From the NCBI GenBank assembly GCA_947627515.1, contig CANQWI010000009.1:1-32836 (forward strand): a stretch of 32,836 nucleotides of DNA, written 5' to 3'. Below are positions 7,285-32,836 of the stretch, in pieces; position 1 is the stretch's first letter; each line of letters begins with the position of its first letter. The notes beneath the pieces are model-generated. The model had not been told where the DNA came from, did not search any database, and saw nothing but the letters and a program-made list of their open reading frames with translations. The position numbers and the translations under genes are program-made. The stretch comes from an uncultured Clostridia bacterium. Its GTDB lineage: Bacteria; Bacillota; Clostridia; Christensenellales; Borkfalkiaceae.

Positions 7285-8745
7285 ATGAAAGAAAAGGTAG
7301 TTTATTGGCTCACAGGCTCACAGACGCTGTACGGGGACGATGTTCTCGCACATGTTGCACAGCACTCCAAGGAAATGGCAAATTACGTCAACAAGCACGT
7401 TCCCGTCACGGTGAAGTATCTCACCACCTGCAAGAGCTCGGATGAGGTCGTCGAGGCCGTGAAGAAGGTCAACAGCGACGAGAGCTGCATCGGCATCATC
7501 ACATGGTGCCACACCTTCTCGCCCGCAAAGATGTGGATCAAGGGCCTTAAAATGCTGCAAAAGCCCATGTGCCACTTCGCAACGCAGTATAACGAAATGC
7601 TTCCCTATGACACCATCGACATGGACTTCATGAACGAAAATCAGGCCGCTCACGGTGACAGAGAGTTCGGCTACATCGTCGCCCGCCTTCGCATGGACAA
7701 CAAGGTCATTGTCGGCTACTATAAGGATCCCGAGGCCCTCAGAGAGCTCGCCTCGTGGTGCGTCACCGCGGCAGGGTATGCCTTCTCCAAAACGGTGAAG
7801 GTTGCCCGCTTTTCCGACAACATGCGCGACGTCGCCGTCACCGAGGGCGACAAGATCGACGCCCATATCAACCTCGGCTGGCAGGTCGACTATTATCCCA
7901 TCGGCGACCTCGTGGACTACATCAATGAGGTCACAGAGGAGGAGGTCGACGCTCTCATGACCGAATATGCGGAGAAGTACACGATGGGCACCGACCGCAT
8001 CGACGTCGTCCGCGAACAGGCAAAATACGAGATCGCCATCGAAAAGCTCTGCAGGGAAAAGGGCGGTTACATCGGCATTGTCGACCACTTCGGCGCACTT
8101 CACGACATGAACCAGCTTCCGGGGCTCGCCATTCAGGACCTGCAGAGCAAGGGCTACGGCTTCGGTGCAGAGGGGGATTGGAAGATCGCCGCACTCGGTG
8201 CCACCATGCAGTACATGGCAGGGCAGAAGGGAACAGGCCTTATGGAGGATTATACCTATGATCTCAAGGACGGACTTTGTCTCGGTGCCCACATGCTCGA
8301 GGTCTCCCCGCAGTTTGCGTCTACAAAGCCCGAAATTCAGGTCCACCCGCTCTCCATCGGCGGGAAGAGCGACCCCGCGCGCCTTGTCTTTGAAGGCATC
8401 GAGGCTCCCGAGGCCATTGCCGTCTCCATGATCGATATGGGGGACAGGATGCGTCTCATCGTGCAGAAGATCTCCCTTGTCAAATATCCTCATCCGATGC
8501 CCAAGCTTCCTGTCGGCGGACTCATGTGGAAATATCAGCCCAATTTCAAGGACGGCGTTGCCGCTTGGATCTATGCGGGCGGGGCGCATCACACCGTCGT
8601 CTCCTCCGTCGTCACGGCACAGCAGATGGTTGACCTCGGCAACATGTGGGGCGTAGAGGTTGTCCTCATCGACGAGAACACCGAGATCAATTCTTTTAAA
8701 GAAAAGCTCATGTGGTCGGACGCCGTTTGGAAGACGAGAAGATAA
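7285..8745 (+). CDS. araA: L-arabinose isomerase
   Basis: 486 aa; WLTGSQTLYGDDVL, CHTFSPAKMWIKGL, GFGAEGDWKIAALGATMQYM, HMLEVSP, GGAHHTVVSS; RBS AGGGG upstream. Confidence 0.97.
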   Translation: MKEKVVYWLTGSQTLYGDDVLAHVAQHSKEMANYVNKHVPVTVKYLTTCKSSDEVVEAVKKVNSDESCIGIITWCHTFSPAKMWIKGLKMLQKPMCHFATQYNEMLPYDTIDMDFMNENQAAHGDREFGYIVARLRMDNKVIVGYYKDPEALRELASWCVTAAGYAFSKTVKVARFSDNMRDVAVTEGDKIDAHINLGWQVDYYPIGDLVDYINEVTEEEVDALMTEYAEKYTMGTDRIDVVREQAKYEIAIEKLCREKGGYIGIVDHFGALHDMNQLPGLAIQDLQSKGYGFGAEGDWKIAALGATMQYMAGQKGTGLMEDYTYDLKDGLCLGAHMLEVSPQFASTKPEIQVHPLSIGGKSDPARLVFEGIEAPEAIAVSMIDMGDRMRLIVQKISLVKYPHPMPKLPVGGLMWKYQPNFKDGVAAWIYAGGAHHTVVSSVVTAQQMVDLGNMWGVEVVLIDENTEINSFKEKLMWSDAVWKTRR

Positions 8746-20227: not shown

Positions 20228-20256
20228 TTGACTTGCCTTGTCAATCGTGATATAAT
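20228..20256 (+). promoter_or_regulatory. SigA-type promoter of the giant surface-protein gene
   Basis: TTGACT (20228-20233), 17-bp spacer, TATAAT (20251-20256). Overlapped by inverted repeat ATTGAC-TTGCCTT-GTCAAT (20227-20245). Confidence 0.8.
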
Positions 20257-20393: not shown

Positions 20394-23300
20394 ATGAGTG
20401 CTCAAGGCAAAAAGAAGGACAAGGGCTTTATTGCGTTGCTCGTACTGATCATCGTATGCGCTTGTCTCATGGTCGCCGCCGTCACTACGCTCGGCATCGG
20501 TATGTCGAACGGCATGGGCGAAAGCGGTCAGCAGGGTGAACAGGGCGAGCAGGGCGTTCCCGGCTCGAAATGGCACACCGATAAGGGCGCACCGAAGGCC
20601 ACCGTCGGCGTTGAGGGCGATCTGTATCTCGATACGGATTCCGGCGACGTCTACGAGAAAAAGGCCGGCGGCTGGACCAAGGTTTTGAACATTAAGGGCG
20701 CGTCCCCGAAGCTCGAGATCAAGGACGGCTACTGGTACGTTGACGGTGTAAACACCAACGTGAAAGCAGCGGGCGCGGACGGCAAGGACGGCCTTAAGGT
20801 TGAGATCGGCGACAACGGCAACTGGTTTGTCGGCGGTAAGGATACCGAGGTCAAAGCCGGCCATTCGTTCGAAATCAAGAACGGCAAGTGGTACATCGAC
20901 GGCAAGGAAGCGGGCGATGCGACCGTCGTGCCCCGCATCAGCGACGGCTCCAACGGTGAGAAGGCCGGCTATTGGTATATCGGCGATACCTGCACAGAAG
21001 TCAAGGCGCAGGGCGAAAGCGGTAAAAACGGCGTCACGCCCTCTATCAGCGACGACGGCTACTGGGTCGTGAACGGCGAAAAGACCACGGTCAAGGCCGA
21101 GGCCAACAGCATCACCATCGTCTACAACGAGTCCAAGGGCTGCGGTGAATGGTGGATCGACGGCGTCAACACAGGGTATCCCGTGCAGGGTGCTCAGGGT
21201 GCCGACGGCTATACGCCCTACATCGACGAGACCTCTGGTGAATGGTACATCAACGGCGAGACCACAGGCGTCAAGGCAAAGGGCGAGGACGGCAAGGACG
21301 GCCTCACTCCCTATATCGAAGATGGCAAATGGTATATCGGCCAAGACCAAGCCAAGCAGGAGCTCGGCCCCGCGACGGGTGCCGCAGGTAAGGACGGTAC
21401 GCTTTGGTTCTCAGGCGAAGGCGCACCTACGGACCAGTCTCCTGCACCCGATGGTCAGGTTTATGTTGAAGGTGCCGTAGAGGGCAGCTTCTACGTCGAC
21501 ACCAAAGCTGCGGGTGGCTTCGAAATTTATCGTTATGGCACAGACGGCTGGCAGTCTCTTACCAAGGTCACCGTTGAGCTCAAGAACGGCAGAGAGTGGG
21601 TGATCAACGGTACGCAGACTCATCTCTATACCACGATGTGGTTCAGCGGCGAAGGCGACCCGACGAGTGAAAATCTCGGCTATGCGGGTGACCTTTACCT
21701 TAACTTGACCTCCGGTCAGGTTTGGCGTAACACGGGCGCAACTCCCGATGTAAACGGCTTGAGCTCCACATGGGAAAAGCACGTCAGCCTCAAGGGCGAA
21801 ACGGGCGAAACGGGCGAAACCGGTCCCACAGGTCCTGAGGGCCCTCAGGGTACAAGAGGCACTCTTTGGTTCTATGGCCAAGGCGATCCCAACAACTTGA
21901 CAAACGACCAAAAGGAAACCGTCTTCGGAAGCCAAACTCCCGACCTCAAGAACGGTGACCTCTATCTCGATGCAACTCGTAATGAGGAGACCAGCGACGG
22001 CTTCCAGGTTTACCAGTACAGAGAGAGCGATGAGAAGTGGGTTGCGATCGAAGGCTTGAAGCTGCAGGGCGTCAAGGGCGAGCGCGGCACCCGTCTCTTC
22101 GCAGGCAAGGGCGACCCCAACGACGCCGGGAACACGGCCCTTCAGGCTACTCTCGAGGGCGCGCAGAACGGCGACTACTTCTTCGATACGCAGGACGGCG
22201 TTATCTATACATATGTAGAAGCCAACAAAGCGGGCGAGAAGTGGCAGCCTCTCAATGACGACGATCCTCTTGCGGGTACCAAGTGGCTCAGCGGCCCCTA
22301 TGATCCTGACGATGTCAAAGAGGACACCGCTCCCGAGCTCTATGCGCTTGTTCAGGCCGCGAAGGATTACGACGTATACTTTAATACGGAAAGCAAGACC
22401 CTTTGGCAGCTCACGCCTCAAGTAGGCAGCGAAAGCAAATGGGCTCGCCTCGGCGTGCTCTCCGACCAGCGCGGCACCAAGTGGTTCTACGGCTCGGCGG
22501 ATCCCTTCACAGCCGAGAACTTTGACGAGACCGTACCGGGCGCGATCAATGACGACTTCTATCTCCAGACCTTCTATGCCTTCAGCGGCGTAAAGGGCTT
22601 CAAGCTCTACGTCCTTCATACGGAAGGCTGGGTCCTCCTCCTCGACATGAGCGAGAAGATTGTAGATCCCAGCTCGTTCGAGATCCCGAACCTCGACGCT
22701 CTTACCGAATTCCGCAACAGCGTCAATAATAAGGATGGCACGTACGGCGACTTCACCGGTAAGACAGTTACCCTCACGGGTGTCGTCACGGTTCCCGAAA
22801 ACTTCGACGCGATCGGCGATCCTGATTCTCACGTCTTCAACGGTACCTTCGACGGCGGCGCAGGCAGTGACCCGCTCAACGAGCTTGAGGGTCAGGCTGC
22901 TATCCATATCGAAGGCATCACGAGTACACTCTTTGATACGCTTGGCTCGGCTGCCGAGATTTATAACCTCGACCTCCACGGCAAGCTGACATCTAATTTC
23001 GCACTTACGACTGACAGAACAATTGAAAACAATGTTGTTCCTCTCCTCGCGAACACATATGGTCTTGCAAAAGAAATTCAGAATACAGACAAAACTAAGA
23101 TTCACAACGTCCGCATCACGCTCGAAGATGAGACAATGACCTTCGTCGCTTACTGGAATGCGGAAGGCGAAGTCACGGTCACCGTCACGGGTAAGGCACA
23201 GACGGCGAAGGGTAGATATGCCCCTCAGGAGCAGCCTACATCGCTCACACTGGCGAATGCTTACATCCTCGACAGCGCAAGCTACGTCTTCGACAACGTC

Positions 23301-26300
23301 CACCTCAACGGCGGCTACATCAATGTCGACAGCGCAACTGCTCTCACTGTCAAGAACAGCGTGATCGAAAAATACAGGATCGGTACAGGTACCACCGAAC
23401 TCCACGACGCTCCGATTTACGGCGGCTATGGCCACAGCCTTGAATCGCTCGTTCTCGAGAACAACCTCTTCAACTCCGACCGCGCTGTCTATATGTATAA
23501 TAGTATCGCACATGCGACTATTAAGGATAACCGGTTCGGTTCGAGCGAATCCCGCATGAACAACGAATGGGCCGTCAAGTTCATGGCCATTCCTCAAGAA
23601 GCCACTTTCGACATCAGCGGCAACACTGTCTATGGCGAAACCTTGGCAGAGGGCGACGATGCGTCCTTCTATGCCTTCGACTTCTATGCAGATGCAACGA
23701 ATAAGGATCATGCCTATACCGTTAAGCTCGCAGAGAACGAGGTCAATGTCAAGAACTCTGCAGTCGACGCCGGCAAGTTCGGCATCGTAAAGGTCGAATC
23801 GCAGGGCGAAAACGGCGCAAAGGCAAGAGTCTACTTCCTCAGCACAGGCGAAGGGAATAAGCTCTCCGAACAGAAAGAGGCAGCCACCGAGGAAATTTCG
23901 CTCTACAAGGCAATCGCATATACTGCTTACAACCTTGGCGCGGCGGAAACTGCAAACGTGGAGAATTCCTTCGACTTCATCGCGTTCAAAGCAACTCTCG
24001 ACGAGCATAACCTGCTCTCCAAGGCATCCGTCTATCTCGGCTCCAACTTCGGTAGCAAACACAGCTTCACGGCAGGCTCGCTTGAAGGTCAGGTCGTCTC
24101 CGGTAAAGAGAATGATGTTGAGATCATTGACCTTGCGTTTGAGGATCCCGAAGGGTTTGTGCAGCACGTAGCGGATTACACTACCCACTACTATGTGAAC
24201 AACGCCCACGGCCTCGCCTCCTTCCGCGACATGGTCAATAAGGGCAAAGACACAGGCGACTTCTTCAAGGAAAGCAATGTCGTTGTCACCACGCAGGATA
24301 TTGACCTCAACGGTATGAACTGGACGCCTATCGGATACTACGAAAGCGCAGAAAACAACAAGTCCTTCATCGGTACCTTTACCACGAAGTATCAGGGTAA
24401 CCAGTATGCGATCAAGAATCTCAAGATCGACAGTGCAGCAGACGATTATGCCCTCTCAGATAAACCCGATGAAGCCAACCTGGGTCTCTTCGGATATGCT
24501 CACCATGTCACACTCAGTGATATCGTTCTTACAAATGTAAAGATCATCGCGAAGGATGGCGTGCAGGGCAATTCCATTGGTGCCTTGGTCGCAAACAAGG
24601 GCATGAACTGCAACGTGTCTAACGTCACAGTCAACAACTCCGAAGACGGTAAAATTGAAATCCAAGGTAAAGAATACGGTGCCGTCGGTGGCGTATTCGG
24701 TCACAGCTATCGTGAAGTGATCGGTGTTAAGCTCGAAGCTACTGTGGGAAGCAATAGCACGATTTCTGCAACGAAATTCGAGGGCGATACATTTGTCGGC
24801 GGTATTGTCGGACACATGGGCGAAGGTGGAGATACATACTCTGACCTTACAGTCAAGAATGTGACGATCACAGGCTACAGGAATGTTGGCGGTATCTTTG
24901 GCGTTGCCTTGAACGGTACCACCATTTCCAATGCAACCGTTGAAAATGTGATACTGAATGTCGCGGCCCACACCGTGGAAGAAGTATCCACAGTCGCTGC
25001 AGACGATGCAAGGCGCATCGGTGCACTTGCAGGCTCTATCGGGAATAATCACAGCACGATCACAGTTACCGATGCAACTGTTTCGGGCGTCGAGCTTAAC
25101 CGTGCAACAAATTCCGACGGATCCTATGTTCCCATGGGTGTCGTATTTGACGGCTATGTCGGTACAGTCTTCAATAACGGCAGCGACACAGAAAATGTCG
25201 TCTTCAGTGGGACGAATAAGATTGAAGCTAGGCTTGACAAGGGTCTCTACATCCATGACGGCGTTTATGAGATCAGAGAAGCTGCAGGCTTGCAACGCTT
25301 CGCAGATATGGTCACCAAGGGTGGCAATATCAACGATAAAGACTACAGAGCTGACACGACTGGTATGACCGTGAAGCTCATGGAGAACATCAACGTCGCC
25401 GACCTCAAGACTGAAGGCGAATGGGAAAAGACCGTAGGTGGCTATGAATATGCTCTTACCTCCGCTACGCTTGAGGATAAACCCTTCGCGGGCACCTTCG
25501 ACGGCGACGGCAAGGCCATTAAAGGCCTCACCTCTGCACTCTTTGCCTTCACCGACGGCGCAACGATCGAGAACGTCAAGCTCGATAGCCTCAATGTCTC
25601 CGGTGACAGGATCGTCGGCGGTGTCGTCAATCTCGCTAAGGGCAAAACGCACCTCATCGACGTTGCAGTCGAAGGTAAGGTCACTCTCACGCTTGATTCC
25701 AACTTCACCCTGTTCGCCCGTTCGATCGGCGGCCTCATCGGTGCCGTGGACGGCAACGAGGTCACTCTCAGCAGTGTCTCCTTCGAGGGTGAGCTCGACA
25801 ATCAGGCCGAAACAGATCACCTCAACTACCTTGTTTACAACGCAGGTCTCGTCGGTTCGACCTACAATGAAGATTATGCAAATGACCTTTGGGCACAGAA
25901 GAGCAGCACAGCCGTCCTGGCCGCAGGGTATGTGAATGTCAATGCCGACGGGAAAGGCACATTCCTTGGCTCGAATCTCTACACAGCATCCACGAACATT
26001 GCCGTCACAGCAACCGACCTTGGCCTGAGCGAAACGGCCACGGTTGCCGGCCCGCTTAGCAACGCAACCGTTTACGGCTTGCTCGTCACTGTCAAGAGCG
26101 ACAAGGGCCTTGCAAGCGTTGCCGAGCTCGTCAACAACGGCATCACCTTCGAGAATCAGACCGTCCTTGTCGGTAAGACATTCAGCATGCTGGCTTACCA
26201 GCAGTCCTTCAAGGGAATCGGTGCGGAAGGCCATCCTTTCAAGGGCACCTTCAACGGCGGCAACACTGAGATCGGCCATGTCTATGGCGCACTCTTTGGC

Positions 26301-29300
26301 AACACCAATGGCGCGACCATTGCCAATCTCAAGCTTGTCGACGCAGTCGCGCAGGGCAACGGGTTTGTCGTAGCGGATGCAACGGCGACCAAGTTCGAAA
26401 ATGTCAGCGTCAGTGCGTTCGTCCAATACATGAATGGCGTCGGCGTGCTCAAGCCCTCCGACCTTGCACAGGCTCCTTACGGGCTGTATGGCAGCGCGAT
26501 CGGTGAAAACACGGTTGCAGGCGAACCGGGTGCCTTGATCACGGTGAAATTCGGCGCAGACCAAGCTCTCACTTTCACCGCAAAGATCGATGAAAACCTC
26601 AACTCCGTCGTTGCCTACACGGGCGACACCTTCGAAGAAGGCGAGAAGGTCAGCGACCATGCAACCTACAAAGCCGTGATCAAGGATGAAACGTTCCATC
26701 TTGGCTCCTTCAACCATAATGTGGGCGCGAATACGCCTACAGCGGCATTTAGCTTCAAGGGTATTAAGTTCACTGGTTACAGCTATATCGATCTTAGCCA
26801 TGATAGTGTCGCATCCTATCCCGCAATTACATCCTTCACGATGGAAAATTGCTATGCCGATGTTACACCTGAAACGGTTTCAGGAATGTTCCCTTCATTT
26901 ATCCTTAATAGAAGTGAACGCAATGCCTTATATTCAATACCTTTCAGGTTTGTAAATAACGTTGTCCTTCTCGGAACAAGCATTACAACGGATAGCGTAT
27001 ATAAGAACGGCTTCTCAGCAATCTATTCGTGGGAACCTTTTGCGGATGGCTCGCTCATCAAGGATAATATCTTTGGTTCAGAAGACAAACCTTTCCATGA
27101 GGCAATCGTCAGTATTCATGGATTCGGCGGTACGAAGGAATCGGCAGAATCTGTGCCTCAAATCACATTTGACGGCAACATCTTCTATAGCGATGCCAGC
27201 AAGACGCTCGCTGCACCTGGTACCCGTTCTCCTGGATATGTTGGGGCGGCAATCGACCTTGCACCCAATAGCTCTTGGGAAATACCTTACATGGTATGGG
27301 TGAAGAACAATACACTCAATATCAATTCCGAGAATCAAGAAGAGATTGACGCTTACACACTTGTCAAAGTGCAGGGTTCGAAGACTCCTCATTCGAGAGT
27401 GTTCCTGCTTGGCGGTGATTCTGCAAATGTTGTAAATGTCAACGGCGAACAGATTGATATCGATTACAATTACGTATCGAAATCAGTTGTGTACTCGAAG
27501 TTCGACTTTGTTGGCTACAACGTGGAGCTCGATGCGAAGGGCAAGATCACGAGCGGCGACTTCATCTTTGGGTACAGCACGCAGCCTCGTGAGACCGTTG
27601 ATGAAAACGATAAGGCACTCGCAACAGCTCTTCAGCCCCTTGTCGCAGCGGACCATACGAAAGACGTCCACATTGTGATTGGCGAGCAGTTTGGCCGCAG
27701 ACTCAGCGATCTTCTTAAAGACGAATACAACACATACTACAACTTCGCGCTTGAAGGCCTGCAGACCTTTGTCTCCCTCGTCAACAGCGGCAACTGGTCG
27801 GGCGAAAAGGCTGACGGCAGCGCCAAGCTCACCGTCAAGCTCGCCGACGAGCTCAATGACCAGCTCGCCAAGGCTTACACGCTTGACATCGCTACATATG
27901 AGTCAGCACTCAAGACGACATGGACTCCGATCGGCGACGAGGATAATCCCTTCAGGGGCACCTTTGACGGTAGCTATGAGAAGGCGGTCGAGGGCGCAGA
28001 CCCTGAGAAAGCATCGTGGATGATCACGGGTCTTACCGTCAGCGGTGAAGACACGCTGGTCGGCCTCTTCGGCGTCACCGATGGCGCAGTGATCAAGAAT
28101 CTTGACATTCAGAGCTTCAGCTTTGAGCTTACCGGCAACCTTGCACGCAACACGGGTGCGCTCATTGCCAAAGCGACGAACACGACCGTCAGCAACGTCA
28201 ACGTTTCGGGCGTCACGCTGAGCGGCTACCTCGGCAACGCGGGTGCGCTTATCGGCTCGGCTGTCGGCGGCACGGTTGAAAACGTCAAGGTCACGAATCT
28301 GAACGCTTCCAATCTTGAAACCTCCAAGTCCGACATGGCGGTCTTCGGTGCGGTCGTCGGCCTTGCAGAGGGCGGCACGTATCAGAACATCCTCGTCGGC
28401 GTCACAAACAATGAAGGCAAATACAAATCGACCAATGATGTCAATGTGACGGCTCTGTATGAGGTCGGCGGTGTGATCGGCCTTGCAAAGGGCAGCGTGA
28501 CCGTCGGTGCGGCAGAGAAACCCGTTTGGGTCGGTGCCGCTGTCAAAGCAAACTCTGTTACCGATGAAAAAACCAACCTTCAGATCGGCGGTATCGTCGG
28601 CGCAGTGGAGGCGACGGACGGGGCTTCTACCTTCACCTTCGAAAATGTGCACTTCATCGGTAAGCTTGAGCGTGTGGCCTTCGGTATGGAGACGAGCACA
28701 AAGTACGAGAACTACGGTCTTGTCGGTGCAAATGTCAGCGCTGAGAATAAAGCGACTGTGAACATCAGCAATTCCACGCTCTATGTTGTGCACAATGAAG
28801 GCTTTGAGCAGGATACGGACTGGACAGAGACCAACAATGTCGATTCCGAATATCGGATCAGCAGCTATGCAGGTCTCAAGTTCTTCCGCGAACAGGTCAA
28901 CAAGGGCAACTCCTATAAGGGTGAGACGATCCACCTTGTTACAGATATCGATCTTGCTGCAGAGCTCGAAAAGGAGGGCGTTGACAGCTGGACGCCTATC
29001 GGCGGAGAAAGGAGTGCAGATCGCTGGGTACATTCCGGTTATCCTTTCGAGGGTACATTCACTGCTAAGAAGGAGAATGTAGAACCGAATGCTGAGGGCG
29101 CGACGATTTCCGTCAAGGGTGTAGCTACAGAGTACAAGTTTGACCCTGAAGCTTACACGATCTCCAACATCAATGTGTTTGAGCACAATGCGCATGGCGC
29201 ATCACAGGACTGCGTCAACGGTAACCTTGTCGGCTTCTTCGGATACACCAACGGTGGGACCATTGAGTATCTGAATATCAACACTGCCAAGGTGACAGGT

Positions 29301-32300
29301 CACACCTACGTAGGTGTGCTTGTAGGTAGCGGTACTAGTACTGACCTGAATCGAATCACGATTGCAAATGCTGTCGTCAAAGGACATCATTGGGTTGGAG
29401 CGCTTTCCGGCATGAGTGATTTGCAGCATGCAAAGGGCAAGACAATTGCCAACTGCACAGTCGTAGGTGCCGAGCTGACCGCAACACCTGAGCTCACTGC
29501 CGAAGGCGGAAGCTTGAAGTTCGACAATGGCGACAAGGTCGGCGGTTTGAGTGGCTGGACGAAGCTTGCGACATTCAGCAACAACATCGTTGCAGAAGCT
29601 GTCATTACCGGCTATCGCGGTGTGGGCGGCTTGGCTGGTTTCTTACAGAGTGACACAGATCAGACGAACAATAAGGTTGAGAATACGGTTATCAACGTTA
29701 AACGCGAAGGATTCACAACCGATGATGGCGATGGTCTGATGGGCTACCAGAAGGATTACGAGTACAATGGTGTCAAGCCTCAGTGTGCTGACTGGATGTT
29801 TGGCGATATCACAAATACGACTGATCCCGCAAGCCACGGTGTCAACGTTGACGACCTTGATGGCAACGAGGAGACTGGTCTCAACAACCACAAGTACAAT
29901 GTCACCATCAACCTTTACAACACTCCCAATGCGGAAAGCCTCATCTACGACAACAATGCATGGCGTGTGATCGATGAGAAGGGCCTTCTCACCCTCGCCT
30001 CGCTCCTTGCAAAGAATGAGGGCGGCACGCATGCAGATCACGCCTACAATGCGGGCTTTGAGGGTGAAACGATCGTTCTCGATCAGGACTATGACCTCGG
30101 CAAGCTCAACGAACAGGGCGAGCTTCAGACAGCCAGCGCATATGTATGGCAGCCTCTCAAGAACTTCAAGGGTACTCTTGACGGGCGCAACCACGTTATC
30201 AGCAACCTGAATGCAAGCTTCTTTGGTGAGCTTGCGGGCACTGTGAAGAATCTCACCTTCACGAACGCAACAACTGCAGCAGGCGTCCTCGCGACGTCTG
30301 CCGCGGGTGCCACCGTTGAGAATGTGACCGTCAACGGCACGGTCAACGCGACGGAGGGCAACGCGGGCGGTCTCTTCAACGCTGTCAGCGGCGCAATCAC
30401 CGTCAAAAATGTGACCTTTAACGGCACAGTCAGCGGCACCAATGTCGGCGCATTCGCAGCGAACTATGAAGGTGCTACGGGCACGGTCGATGGGTTCACG
30501 TTCAGCGGTACCCTCACGGCTGCAGAAGGTGGCAAGGCTACCCTTCTCAAGGGCGATGCAAACGTTACATTCAGCAACTCCTCCGTCAGCCTGCCGAAGC
30601 CCGCGGGCTATGAGGACCTTAACGTCCTCTATGGCGCATATGCGGACAAAGACGGTGCCGTGATCGAGGGTGCAAAGGCGCAGTTTATCCTCAAGAATGA
30701 GGCAGACCTTGCAGCGTTCAGAGACTTTGTGAATGCTGCGAAAGCGCACTCCTTCGCAGGTGAGACCGTTATCCTTGCGGACAACATCACGCTCAAGGAC
30801 AATTGGACGCCCATCGGTACAATGGGCAACCGCTTCCTCGGCACGTTTGACGGCAACAACAAGACGATCAGCGGCCTTCAGGTCAGTGGCTCAAACGATC
30901 TCGGCTTGTTCGGGCTTATCGGCTTTAACGATGGCATATCCGCGCATCCCGTTGTCAAGAACCTCACGCTTAACGGCGGCACGGTCACGGTGACCGGTCA
31001 GGTCGCGGACTATCAGAACCGTGCGGGTCTCCTCGCGGGCTATGCCGCAAATACCACGTTTGAGAACATCACGCTCAGCGGCACGATCACTGTCAAGGTC
31101 GACGACGCGGCATCTGCCACGAGCTTCTACTCCGATCTCGGCGGTCTCGTCGGCAGGTCGCAGGCCTGCACCTACAATAAGATCTCGGTCACTGCTGCAG
31201 AAGGCTCTGCGGTCGGCGCGAAACACGCATGGAGCGTTGGCGGTCTCATCGGTATGTCGATGCACGACACCGTCGGCGGCGAGGGCGAGGGTGAAACAGT
31301 CACTCTTAGCGGCCTCAGCGTCAACGGCACAGAGGGCGTCGGCGGCCTCGTCGGTACCGCCTTTGGGTACAATAAAGAGGTCAAAACCTACACCTATCAG
31401 AACATCACTCTCACCAACGTCACCGTGACGGACAACGGCGATGTGAAATTTGGCGACGTGAGAGATGAAAAGCTTGTCGGCGGGCTCATCGGCGCGTACG
31501 ACGGCAAGTTTGAGCTCAAGAACAGCAGCTTCAGCGGCATGATCGTCCGTGCAAAGGGCTACGGCGAGCTTGCGAACTGCGGCCTTGTCGGCGGCTTCTC
31601 GAGCGTCTACGGCGGTTTAACGACAGAGCCTTCCCTCAAGATCACCGATTCCTCCATCGAATACACGATGAAGACGGGCGAGGCTGAGGACTACAAGGCG
31701 GCCTTCGAATGGGATGCAGCGGGCACTGCAAGCGCGAAGAATATCGCAGAGGGCAGCGTTGCGATGCTCATCAGCACCGAGAGCGGGCTCAAGTACTTCG
31801 CGCAGCTTGTAAACGGCGGCCTCACGTTTGAGAACTCCACCGTCAAGCTCGCAGAGGACATCACTCTGACCGCTGCTTGGACTCCCATCAGCGGCACCTT
31901 CTCCGGCACGTTCGACGGCGAGGACGCTACGGGTGTAAAGCATTCGATCAGCGACCTCACGATCGATGCTCAGGAGGATGCTACCGAAAACAAGTACGGC
32001 TTCTTCTCCTCGCTCAATGGCGCAACCGTTCAGAACCTTATATTTAAGAACGTTAAGGTCAACGCACCCAATGCGAACAGCGTTGGTACAATTGCGGCCA
32101 AAGCAGAGGGTGCTACGATCAAACACGTTCACGTGTATGTTGGAAGCGAAGGCCTCAAGGGCGGTCGCTGGGTCGGCGGTATCGTCGGCTACGCGCTCAA
32201 CACGATCCTTATGGGCAACTCCGTGGAGGGTGCGCTCTCCGTTACCGATTACAAGCTCGGCGGCATCGTTGGCTATCTTGCAGGCGATACGTCTGCCGTA

Positions 32301-32836
32301 ACGGGGAACACCGTCGGTAAAGAAAGCAATTATGCTACACTCACTGCAGACGGCGGCTGGGGCATGATCGGTGGCCTTATCGGCGGCACGAGTGCTAGCA
32401 GGATTCTTGTCGAATCCAACACCGTCTATGCGCAGATCGATGCTTCCACGGCAACTGAAGGCACGACCGCAGAGGAAGATTTTCAGAAGTACAATGGCGC
32501 ACTCCTTGCCAACGGCGGCCAGGATGTTGCCCTTAACAAGAATACCGGTAAGGTTACCCTTAAATTAGCACTCGAGAACCTTTACAACAACGGTCTTGCA
32601 GGTGTCAACAATGCGGGTAGCTATGCTATCGGTGCTGGCGAAAATGCCAACTCCGTCGAGGTTACGCTTGAGAACACCGTCTCTGTGCTCAATAACACCT
32701 ACACGCTGTTGGGCGAGACGGGCGCGGGCCTCACGTGGTTTGCAAATCAGGTCAACGCCGCCAATTCCTTCGTCGGGAAAAAGGTCGTGCTCGGCTCCAA
32801 TGTCACACTCGACAATGGGGGGGGGGGTCTAACTGG
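20394..32836 (+). CDS. giant repeat surface protein (collagen-like, DG-WY repeats, GLUG-type beta-helix blocks), 3' end outside window
   Basis: Start ATG 20394 with AGAGGAG RBS; MSAQGKKKDKGFIALLVLIIVCACLMVAAVTTLGIG signal anchor. Manual translation in this frame to 32836 showed no stop. Not in the ORF track, presumably because it lacks a stop. Confidence 0.93.
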   Translation, partial: MSAQGKKKDKGFIALLVLIIVCACLMVAAVTTLGIGMSNGMGESGQQGEQGEQGVPGSKWHTDKGAPKATVGVEGDLYLDTDSGDVYEKKAGGWTKVLNIKGASPKLEIKDGYWYVDGVNTNVKAAGADGKDGLKVEIGDNGNWFVGGKDTEVKAGHSFEIKNGKWYIDGKEAGDATVVPRISDGSNGEKAGYWYIGDTCTEVKAQGESGKNGVTPSISDDGYWVVNGEKTTVKAEANSITIVYNESKGCGEWWIDGVNTGYPVQGAQGADGYTPYIDETSGEWYINGETTGVKAKGEDGKDGLTPYIEDGKWYIGQDQAKQELGPATGAAGKDGTLWFSGEGAPTDQSPAPDGQVYVEGAVEGSFYVDTKAAGGFEIYRYGTDGWQSLTKVTVELKNGREWVINGTQTHLYTTMWFSGEGDPTSENLGYAGDLYLNLTSGQVWRNTGATPDVNGLSSTWEKHVSLKGETGETGETGPTGPEGPQGTRGTLWFYGQGDPNNLTNDQKETVFGSQTPDLKNGDLYLDATRNEETSDGFQVYQYRESDEKWVAIEGLKLQGVKGERGTRLFAGKGDPNDAGNTALQATLEGAQNGDYFFDTQDGVIYTYVEANKAGEKWQPLNDDDPLAGTKWLSGPYDPDDVKEDTAPELYALVQAAKDYDVYFNTESKTLWQLTPQVGSESKWARLGVLSDQRGTKWFYGSADPFTAENFDETVPGAINDDFYLQTFYAFSGVKGFKLYVLHTEGWVLLLDMSEKIVDPSSFEIPNLDALTEFRNSVNNKDGTYGDFTGKTVTLTGVVTVPENFDAIGDPDSHVFNGTFDGGAGSDPLNELEGQAAIHIEGITSTLFDTLGSAAEIYNLDLHGKLTSNFALTTDRTIENNVVPLLANTYGLAKEIQNTDKTKIHNVRITLEDETMTFVAYWNAEGEVTVTVTGKAQTAKGRYAPQEQPTSLTLANAYILDSASYVFDNVHLNGGYINVDSATALTVKNSVIEKYRIGTGTTELHDAPIYGGYGHSLESLVLENNLFNSDRAVYMYNSIAHATIKDNRFGSSESRMNNEWAVKFMAIPQEATFDISGNTVYGETLAEGDDASFYAFDFYADATNKDHAYTVKLAENEVNVKNSAVDAGKFGIVKVESQGENGAKARVYFLSTGEGNKLSEQKEAATEEISLYKAIAYTAYNLGAAETANVENSFDFIAFKATLDEHNLLSKASVYLGSNFGSKHSFTAGSLEGQVVSGKENDVEIIDLAFEDPEGFVQHVADYTTHYYVNNAHGLASFRDMVNKGKDTGDFFKESNVVVTTQDIDLNGMNWTPIGYYESAENNKSFIGTFTTKYQGNQYAIKNLKIDSAADDYALSDKPDEANLGLFGYAHHVTLSDIVLTNVKIIAKDGVQGNSIGALVANKGMNCNVSNVTVNNSEDGKIEIQGKEYGAVGGVFGHSYREVIGVKLEATVGSNSTISATKFEGDTFVGGIVGHMGEGGDTYSDLTVKNVTITGYRNVGGIFGVALNGTTISNATVENVILNVAAHTVEEVSTVAADDARRIGALAGSIGNNHSTITVTDATVSGVELNRATNSDGSYVPMGVVFDGYVGTVFNNGSDTENVVFSGTNKIEARLDKGLYIHDGVYEIREAAGLQRFADMVTKGGNINDKDYRADTTGMTVKLMENINVADLKTEGEWEKTVGGYEYALTSATLEDKPFAGTFDGDGKAIKGLTSALFAFTDGATIENVKLDSLNVSGDRIVGGVVNLAKGKTHLIDVAVEGKVTLTLDSNFTLFARSIGGLIGAVDGNEVTLSSVSFEGELDNQAETDHLNYLVYNAGLVGSTYNEDYANDLWAQKSSTAVLAAGYVNVNADGKGTFLGSNLYTASTNIAVTATDLGLSETATVAGPLSNATVYGLLVTVKSDKGLASVAELVNNGITFENQTVLVGKTFSMLAYQQSFKGIGAEGHPFKGTFNGGNTEIGHVYGALFGNTNGATIANLKLVDAVAQGNGFVVADATATKFENVSVSAFVQYMNGVGVLKPSDLAQAPYGLYGSAIGENTVAGEPGALITVKFGADQALTFTAKIDENLNSVVAYTGDTFEEGEKVSDHATYKAVIKDETFHLGSFNHNVGANTPTAAFSFKGIKFTGYSYIDLSHDSVASYPAITSFTMENCYADVTPETVSGMFPSFILNRSERNALYSIPFRFVNNVVLLGTSITTDSVYKNGFSAIYSWEPFADGSLIKDNIFGSEDKPFHEAIVSIHGFGGTKESAESVPQITFDGNIFYSDASKTLAAPGTRSPGYVGAAIDLAPNSSWEIPYMVWVKNNTLNINSENQEEIDAYTLVKVQGSKTPHSRVFLLGGDSANVVNVNGEQIDIDYNYVSKSVVYSKFDFVGYNVELDAKGKITSGDFIFGYSTQPRETVDENDKALATALQPLVAADHTKDVHIVIGEQFGRRLSDLLKDEYNTYYNFALEGLQTFVSLVNSGNWSGEKADGSAKLTVKLADELNDQLAKAYTLDIATYESALKTTWTPIGDEDNPFRGTFDGSYEKAVEGADPEKASWMITGLTVSGEDTLVGLFGVTDGAVIKNLDIQSFSFELTGNLARNTGALIAKATNTTVSNVNVSGVTLSGYLGNAGALIGSAVGGTVENVKVTNLNASNLETSKSDMAVFGAVVGLAEGGTYQNILVGVTNNEGKYKSTNDVNVTALYEVGGVIGLAKGSVTVGAAEKPVWVGAAVKANSVTDEKTNLQIGGIVGAVEATDGASTFTFENVHFIGKLERVAFGMETSTKYENYGLVGANVSAENKATVNISNSTLYVVHNEGFEQDTDWTETNNVDSEYRISSYAGLKFFREQVNKGNSYKGETIHLVTDIDLAAELEKEGVDSWTPIGGERSADRWVHSGYPFEGTFTAKKENVEPNAEGATISVKGVATEYKFDPEAYTISNINVFEHNAHGASQDCVNGNLVGFFGYTNGGTIEYLNINTAKVTGHTYVGVLVGSGTSTDLNRITIANAVVKGHHWVGALSGMSDLQHAKGKTIANCTVVGAELTATPELTAEGGSLKFDNGDKVGGLSGWTKLATFSNNIVAEAVITGYRGVGGLAGFLQSDTDQTNNKVENTVINVKREGFTTDDGDGLMGYQKDYEYNGVKPQCADWMFGDITNTTDPASHGVNVDDLDGNEETGLNNHKYNVTINLYNTPNAESLIYDNNAWRVIDEKGLLTLASLLAKNEGGTHADHAYNAGFEGETIVLDQDYDLGKLNEQGELQTASAYVWQPLKNFKGTLDGRNHVISNLNASFFGELAGTVKNLTFTNATTAAGVLATSAAGATVENVTVNGTVNATEGNAGGLFNAVSGAITVKNVTFNGTVSGTNVGAFAANYEGATGTVDGFTFSGTLTAAEGGKATLLKGDANVTFSNSSVSLPKPAGYEDLNVLYGAYADKDGAVIEGAKAQFILKNEADLAAFRDFVNAAKAHSFAGETVILADNITLKDNWTPIGTMGNRFLGTFDGNNKTISGLQVSGSNDLGLFGLIGFNDGISAHPVVKNLTLNGGTVTVTGQVADYQNRAGLLAGYAANTTFENITLSGTITVKVDDAASATSFYSDLGGLVGRSQACTYNKISVTAAEGSAVGAKHAWSVGGLIGMSMHDTVGGEGEGETVTLSGLSVNGTEGVGGLVGTAFGYNKEVKTYTYQNITLTNVTVTDNGDVKFGDVRDEKLVGGLIGAYDGKFELKNSSFSGMIVRAKGYGELANCGLVGGFSSVYGGLTTEPSLKITDSSIEYTMKTGEAEDYKAAFEWDAAGTASAKNIAEGSVAMLISTESGLKYFAQLVNGGLTFENSTVKLAEDITLTAAWTPISGTFSGTFDGEDATGVKHSISDLTIDAQEDATENKYGFFSSLNGATVQNLIFKNVKVNAPNANSVGTIAAKAEGATIKHVHVYVGSEGLKGGRWVGGIVGYALNTILMGNSVEGALSVTDYKLGGIVGYLAGDTSAVTGNTVGKESNYATLTADGGWGMIGGLIGGTSASRILVESNTVYAQIDASTATEGTTAEEDFQKYNGALLANGGQDVALNKNTGKVTLKLALENLYNNGLAGVNNAGSYAIGAGENANSVEVTLENTVSVLNNTYTLLGETGAGLTWFANQVNAANSFVGKKVVLGSNVTLDNGGGGLT
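21794..21820 (+). repeat. three perfect tandem copies of a 9-bp unit GGGCGAAAC
   Basis: GGGCGAAAC at 21794-21802, 21803-21811, 21812-21820; encodes GET-GET-GET before GPTGPEGPQG. Confidence 0.9.
32817..32827 (+). repeat. G11 homopolymer in the giant surface-protein gene
   Basis: GACAAT-GGGGGGGGGGG-TCTAACTGG at the window end. Confidence 0.9.

Follow-up and report, generated by a model that had tools for sequence, protein, structure and literature searches.

A coding poly-G tract probably truncates the distal end of a giant GLUG-repeat protein in an uncultured gut Clostridia bacterium

Does a run of guanines close to the end of a contig mark a switch in a bacterial surface protein, or a fault of sequencing? 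The question is raised by contig C9 (CANQWI010000009.1) of a draft genome (GCA_947627515.1; 1.53 Mb in 125 contigs, 71% complete) from an uncultured Clostridia bacterium of the Borkfalkiaceae. The stretch of DNA analysed here, referred to as the window, is this complete contig of 32,836 bp; it ends nine nucleotides behind a tract of 11 Gs in the gene for a giant, exported-looking GLUG-repeat protein. A preliminary description, made from the letters alone, had proposed that the length of this tract sets the reading frame of a giant adhesin, with a poly-G artefact as the alternative. In our view the tract very probably acts as a contingency locus, where slipped-strand mispairing leads to loss of the protein's distal end. 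The features on which this reading turns are:

20394..32836, plus strand: 5' part of the giant gene, encoding the exported GLUG-repeat protein; its ATG lies behind AAGAGGAG, and the frame is open to the contig end and goes on in contig C123
32817..32827, plus strand: G11 tract, the proposed slippage site; exactly 11 Gs, out of frame at 11
32828..32836, plus strand: TCTAACTGG, start of the next repeat block (SNW), directly after the Gs and reaching the window end

Between the ATG at 20394 and the tract lie 4,141 codons, and the tract is the only run of six or more Gs in the 12.5-kb giant open reading frame (ORF). Read from this ATG through 11 Gs, the frame gives ...VTLDNGGGGLT, so that the count and the translation given in the preliminary description are both borne out. 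When the upstream frame is extended over 8 to 15 Gs it remains open with 9, 12 and 15, whereas 8, 10, 11, 13 or 14 Gs lead, in this computed extension, to a stop within nine codons of the tract start. With 12 or 9 Gs the sequence becomes ...GGG(G)SNW, and the N-W pair expected at a block start is restored, as had been foreseen.

What lies behind the tract is found in a second contig of the same genome, C123 (3,380 bp), which begins A-G13-TCTAACTGGACGCCC (given as A-G13-TCTAACTGGACGCCCGTAGGC in the genome search for G runs) and whose positions 4-23 are an exact copy of the last 20 nucleotides of the window. One frame of C123 is open from end to end, encoding 1,126 amino acids that start GGGG-SNWTPVGDAEKPFEGTFDG (also given as GGGG-SNWTPVGDAEKPFEGTFDGNNKTISNLNVEG); this is the continuation in the SNW frame that had been predicted. 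The two contigs give discordant lengths, 11 Gs at the end of C9 and, at the start of C123, 13 after the A, or 12 if the T preceding the tract was misread, which agrees with the earlier guess that the assembly broke at the tract where lengths differ. Illumina reads are known to degrade into Gs behind real G tracts, an effect termed 'G's end' (PMC9187656), and since reads fail in this way a contig break at a real tract is to be expected. No contig following C123 was found by using its end sequence; C54 was considered as a continuation and rejected, as it encodes a separate protein of 1,821 amino acids. Neither flank of the tract is present in viral contigs.

We propose that DNA polymerase would gain or lose Gs at the tract by slipped-strand mispairing in replication, shifting the frame. 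Counts that are a multiple of three (9, 12, 15) would be read through the SNWTPVG block start into at least 1,120 further residues; with other counts translation would stop within nine codons, and the protein would end at a block boundary, after ~4,150 residues, without its distal blocks. A population would then contain the same surface protein in a long and a truncated version, side by side. As regards the frame switch of the preliminary description, the frame effect, the continuation and the recurrence of such tracts in relatives (below) stand, and reversible switching within one population is what we infer from them.

The nature of the protein bears on what a truncation would do. It has a single hydrophobic segment, at the N-terminus, as well as a stretch resembling collagen and a series of GLUG-type blocks opening with W-T-P-I-G; the conserved motifs of this type noted previously are indeed found in it. 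Elements upstream and block starts for comparison are:

20228..20256, plus strand: probable promoter, TTGACT-17-TATAAT with extended -10 (consensus scan, 11/12 matches); its spacer has no G tract
20415..20507, plus strand: N-terminal hydrophobic segment, a signal or membrane anchor (hydropathy windows)
30804..30818, plus strand: tract-free block start of the WTPIG form (NITLKDNWTPIG)
31878..31892, plus strand: tract-free block start of the WTPIS form (DITLTAAWTPIS)

Above curated cut-offs, PF07581 (GLUG) matches in C123 and PF05342 in both the C9 and the C123 parts; the PF05342 match is confined to the repeats, and a peptidase domain was not detected in the giant protein. An AlphaFold model of one block is almost entirely beta (mean predicted local distance difference test score, pLDDT, 70); it had no significant match among solved structures, and a sequence search of solved structures gave no credible match either. 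The intact homologues in genomes G030, G032, G043 and G051 end without an LPXTG-type sorting signal, a result that speaks for the homologues, the window protein's own C-terminus being unassembled. Because the only anchor-like segment is N-terminal and the intact homologues have no C-terminal sorting signal, a truncated protein may remain attached to the cell, minus its distal end. The protein is presumably exposed at the surface and may have an adhesive role.

Chance does not explain the G tract. Across 40,538 codons of the gene family, from seven genomes, we counted 11 runs of eight or more Gs, corresponding to 10 sites since C9 and C123 show one common tract. Shuffling gave means of 0.5 such runs (codon order) and 0.17 (synonymous codons), none of 300 shuffles equalled the observed number, and the runs are thus 20-60 times commoner than in shuffles. 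Runs of five or more are rarer than chance in the same codons, which hold no C run of six or more and no A or T run of eight or more. Position is equally telling: nine of the ten sites lie within nine codons before a W-x-P-I motif, a stretch amounting to ~1% of the protein, although the sites are partly non-independent in that three share the form DLGGV(N/S)W. The exception is the second tract of G051 (amino acid 4267), which is away from the motif. It is position and length that serve as evidence here; the whole-genome count of runs of nine or more Gs was set aside because a rough estimate from base composition predicts a similar number.

Similar tracts, which the preliminary description had thought worth seeking in paralogues or strains, occur in the same giant protein family of relatives. 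A DNA search with the 580 bp upstream of the tract against 40 relatives returned a 40-bp motif match only, so that protein searches were needed; a search of 103 genomes of the genus for G8 closely before W-x-P codons revealed further giant genes, and the family includes in-frame as well as out-of-frame alleles:

G030: three G8 tracts at block starts, all in frame
G051: G8 twice, each keeping the frame
G106: an in-frame G8, followed by a G9 that is out of frame (...QDVENGGGY*); a different frame is open for 1,353 codons
G103: an in-frame G8, followed by a G9 that is out of frame (...NLAGGGDL*); a different frame is open for 1,538 codons or more

Both out-of-frame tracts sit within unbroken contigs. 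The G9 site of G103 is orthologous to the window tract, with co-linear matches of 34% identity over 300 amino acids upstream and 47% over 365 amino acids downstream; for the distal tracts of G030, G051 and G106 orthology with the window tract was not established, because the blocks are shuffled. The three block-start tracts of G030, together with the two tracts each of G103 and G106, of which only the longer, distal one is out of frame, lead us to suggest, tentatively and as somewhat less likely than its converse, that several poly-G tracts, each before a block, form a truncation ladder that trims the protein to varied lengths and is not a simple ON/OFF switch.

Direct evidence for change of G-tract length in this lineage comes from homologous promoters. 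Those of G001 and G055, which are different species, align over ~450 bp with a sole indel, G8 versus G9. The window's own genome holds paralogous promoters at C1:56267-56295 (L002) and C40:7024-7048 (L216), of the form TTGACAAT-Gn-..TATAAT, with near-identical flanks and different tracts; their spacers measure 17 and 13 nucleotides, and they precede paralogous exported proteins (MSIRKKLIG..).

Several observations weigh against a switch at the window's tract. Assembled G-tract lengths may be wrong by a base or two. Nor is the tract conserved, the same junction being without one in the orthologues of G043 and G032, whose frames are open over 6,005 and 6,222 amino acids; set beside the tracts found elsewhere, this means that the tract comes and goes over evolutionary time. 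Finally, the G8 tracts in the giant genes are all in frame, and short ones may be stable.

In an unlikely alternative the tract is real but fixed at an in-frame length of 12, a tolerated poly-glycine loop before the block that is always read through and was miscounted by the assembler. C123 may indeed hold 12 Gs if the T before its tract was misread, glycine-rich stretches preceding NW are natural in the family (for example DLGGVNWTPIG), and the relatives' G8 tracts keep the frame. However, GGG accounts for no more than 5-8% of the codons used for glycine, and such runs hardly ever arise when synonymous codons are shuffled; moreover, the out-of-frame tracts of G103 and G106 lie inside unbroken contigs, and the homologous promoters show tract lengths changing in the lineage.

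A second alternative, to which we attach very little probability, places the slippage in expression: RNA polymerase or the ribosome would slip on the G run, so that a single DNA length gives rise to both protein forms, long and short. Long homopolymers can have this effect, and a tract that is out of frame but followed by a long open frame would fit as well, but known transcriptional slippage occurs mainly on runs of A or T (PMC3711429), and lengths that differ between alleles and contigs are what slippage of DNA predicts. The poly-G artefact of two-colour sequencing chemistry or assembly, invited by a tract only nine nucleotides from a contig end and by reads that do degrade into Gs behind true tracts (PMC9187656), is excluded at the window's site because real sequence lies behind the Gs: nine nucleotides of true coding sequence follow them, recur with the tract in C123 and continue there, and equivalent tracts are found within long contigs of relatives, so that we give this explanation almost no credence. 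The same low credence goes to a decaying gene with an ordinary inactivating frameshift, since the assembled allele is out of frame but its 4,174 + 1,126 codons contain no other stop or frameshift and the shift coincides precisely with a G tract where a block begins, as it does in G103 and G106.

Poly-G tracts are also widespread in promoter spacers of the genus. The pattern TTGACA-N{0,7}-G8-N{0,7}-TATAAT has 138 matches in 61 of the 103 genus genomes, against none for the reversed control and 11 with C8 in place of G8, and across the order it occurs in 33 of 297 genomes and 17 of 125 genera, again with no control matches. Spacer lengths are mostly 15-18 nucleotides, and 10 of the genus's 27 tracts of exactly 11 Gs lie within such spacers. 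A signal-, lipoprotein- or membrane-like start was seen in 21 of 26 genes behind poly-G spacers versus 42 of 124 otherwise unmatched control ORFs (Fisher p = 1.5e-5). One further example, at C52:6013-6023 of the window's own genome, G000 (L011, L242), reads TTGACAATTC-G11-TAAAAT with a spacer of 15 and stands ahead of a lipoprotein-like gene (MKKSKLWMILATGSLCVGLLAAAVACGG). Dispersed families of near-identical poly-G promoters, such as TTGACAAGCAGGGGGGGGTGGTATAAT, are present in G002 (18 sites) and G029 (8 sites), as if copied along with a gene or element. Among the matches listed (L053-L132), many uncultured Clostridia and Bacilli of the gut have poly-G promoter spacers, and a metagenome-assembled genome (MAG) of Candidatus Ancillula (JAIRWY) has at least six.

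The homopolymer switch as a mechanism is already known; the best records of such phase variation come from Gram-negative pathogens, and commensal cases are few. What appear to be new are the lineage, the position of the tract deep in a gene and the presence of several tracts per gene; a literature search confined to open-licence papers found no report of homopolymer phase variation in Christensenellales. Its marks, coding tracts and promoter spacers mostly before exported proteins, extend through a whole genus of uncultured gut Clostridia. Should the tracts switch, these commensals would vary a large part of their surface randomly inside a single host, and in metagenome-derived genomes the genes concerned would wrongly appear broken or split. 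A G tract can also interrupt a metagenome assembly right at the switch itself.

Among characterised systems, the nearest experimental parallel is the G-tract replication-slippage switch in the sortase-dependent pilin genes bbr_0113 and bbr_1889 of Bifidobacterium breve UCC2003, where a G11 tract was found in culture as 37% G11, 59% G12 and 3% G10, and where the in-frame length accounted for 30% in mice (PMC9187656). In both cases a gut commensal has a large surface protein whose coding sequence includes a poly-G tract of 10-12, with length setting the frame; in B. breve the assembled length differs from that in the population, as may be so here, and G tracts in promoter spacers are mentioned there as well (PMC9187656). 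The B. breve tract differs in lying near the 5' end and gating the whole pilin and its operon, whereas that of the window follows ~4,140 codons and would cost the protein its distal blocks only; the pilins are sortase-dependent, no sorting signal was found in the intact homologues here, and both the phylum and the protein family are different. Poly-G loci of Campylobacter and Helicobacter likewise place tracts in the coding sequence of surface-related genes where one-base changes switch the frame, and, as in the C-terminal switching of H. canadensis, the end of the protein can be altered without loss of the whole (PMC2823697). They belong to another phylum, and their tracts act on other proteins. 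We know of no case in Campylobacter or Helicobacter of several tracts at repeat-block starts in one giant gene, as in G030. Promoter-spacer phase variation, for its part, operates at porA of Neisseria. It also controls Haemophilus fimbriae (PMC9187656), and the same arrangement with poly-G is widespread in the window's genus; this is the transcriptional form, however, whereas the window tract is in coding sequence and the gene's own promoter is tract-free. Within Clostridia, CwpV of Clostridioides difficile is also a large repeat-bearing surface protein switched ON and OFF at random (PMC2784873), but reportedly by site-specific DNA inversion upstream of the gene and not by slippage at a coding homopolymer.

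With regard to the organism itself, the window encodes a NadD-YqeK protein that shares 60% and 59% identity with those of the uncultured Clostridia MAGs Lapin-023 bin48 and Lapin-001 bin47, and 47% with that of Candidatus Borkfalkia excrementavium. At loci held in common, three genomes of the genus match named MAGs of this sort without any difference. NCBI classes Borkfalkia in Christensenellales, and the window's genus presumably lies near Candidatus Borkfalkia. Other G runs were noted in passing. Two contig ends of G013, the end of C20 (L214) and the start of C68 (L215), carry 19 and 15 Gs with no clear coding or promoter context and could be artefacts. In G105:C18 (L295) a G11 tract at 7571, minus strand, precedes an out-of-frame stretch encoding a protein with a carbohydrate-binding domain (PF02018), and in G056:C5 (L296), from the window's genus, a G11 tract at 8487, minus strand, splits an N6_N4_Mtase DNA methylase (PF01555) out of frame, making this methyltransferase a candidate for phase variation.
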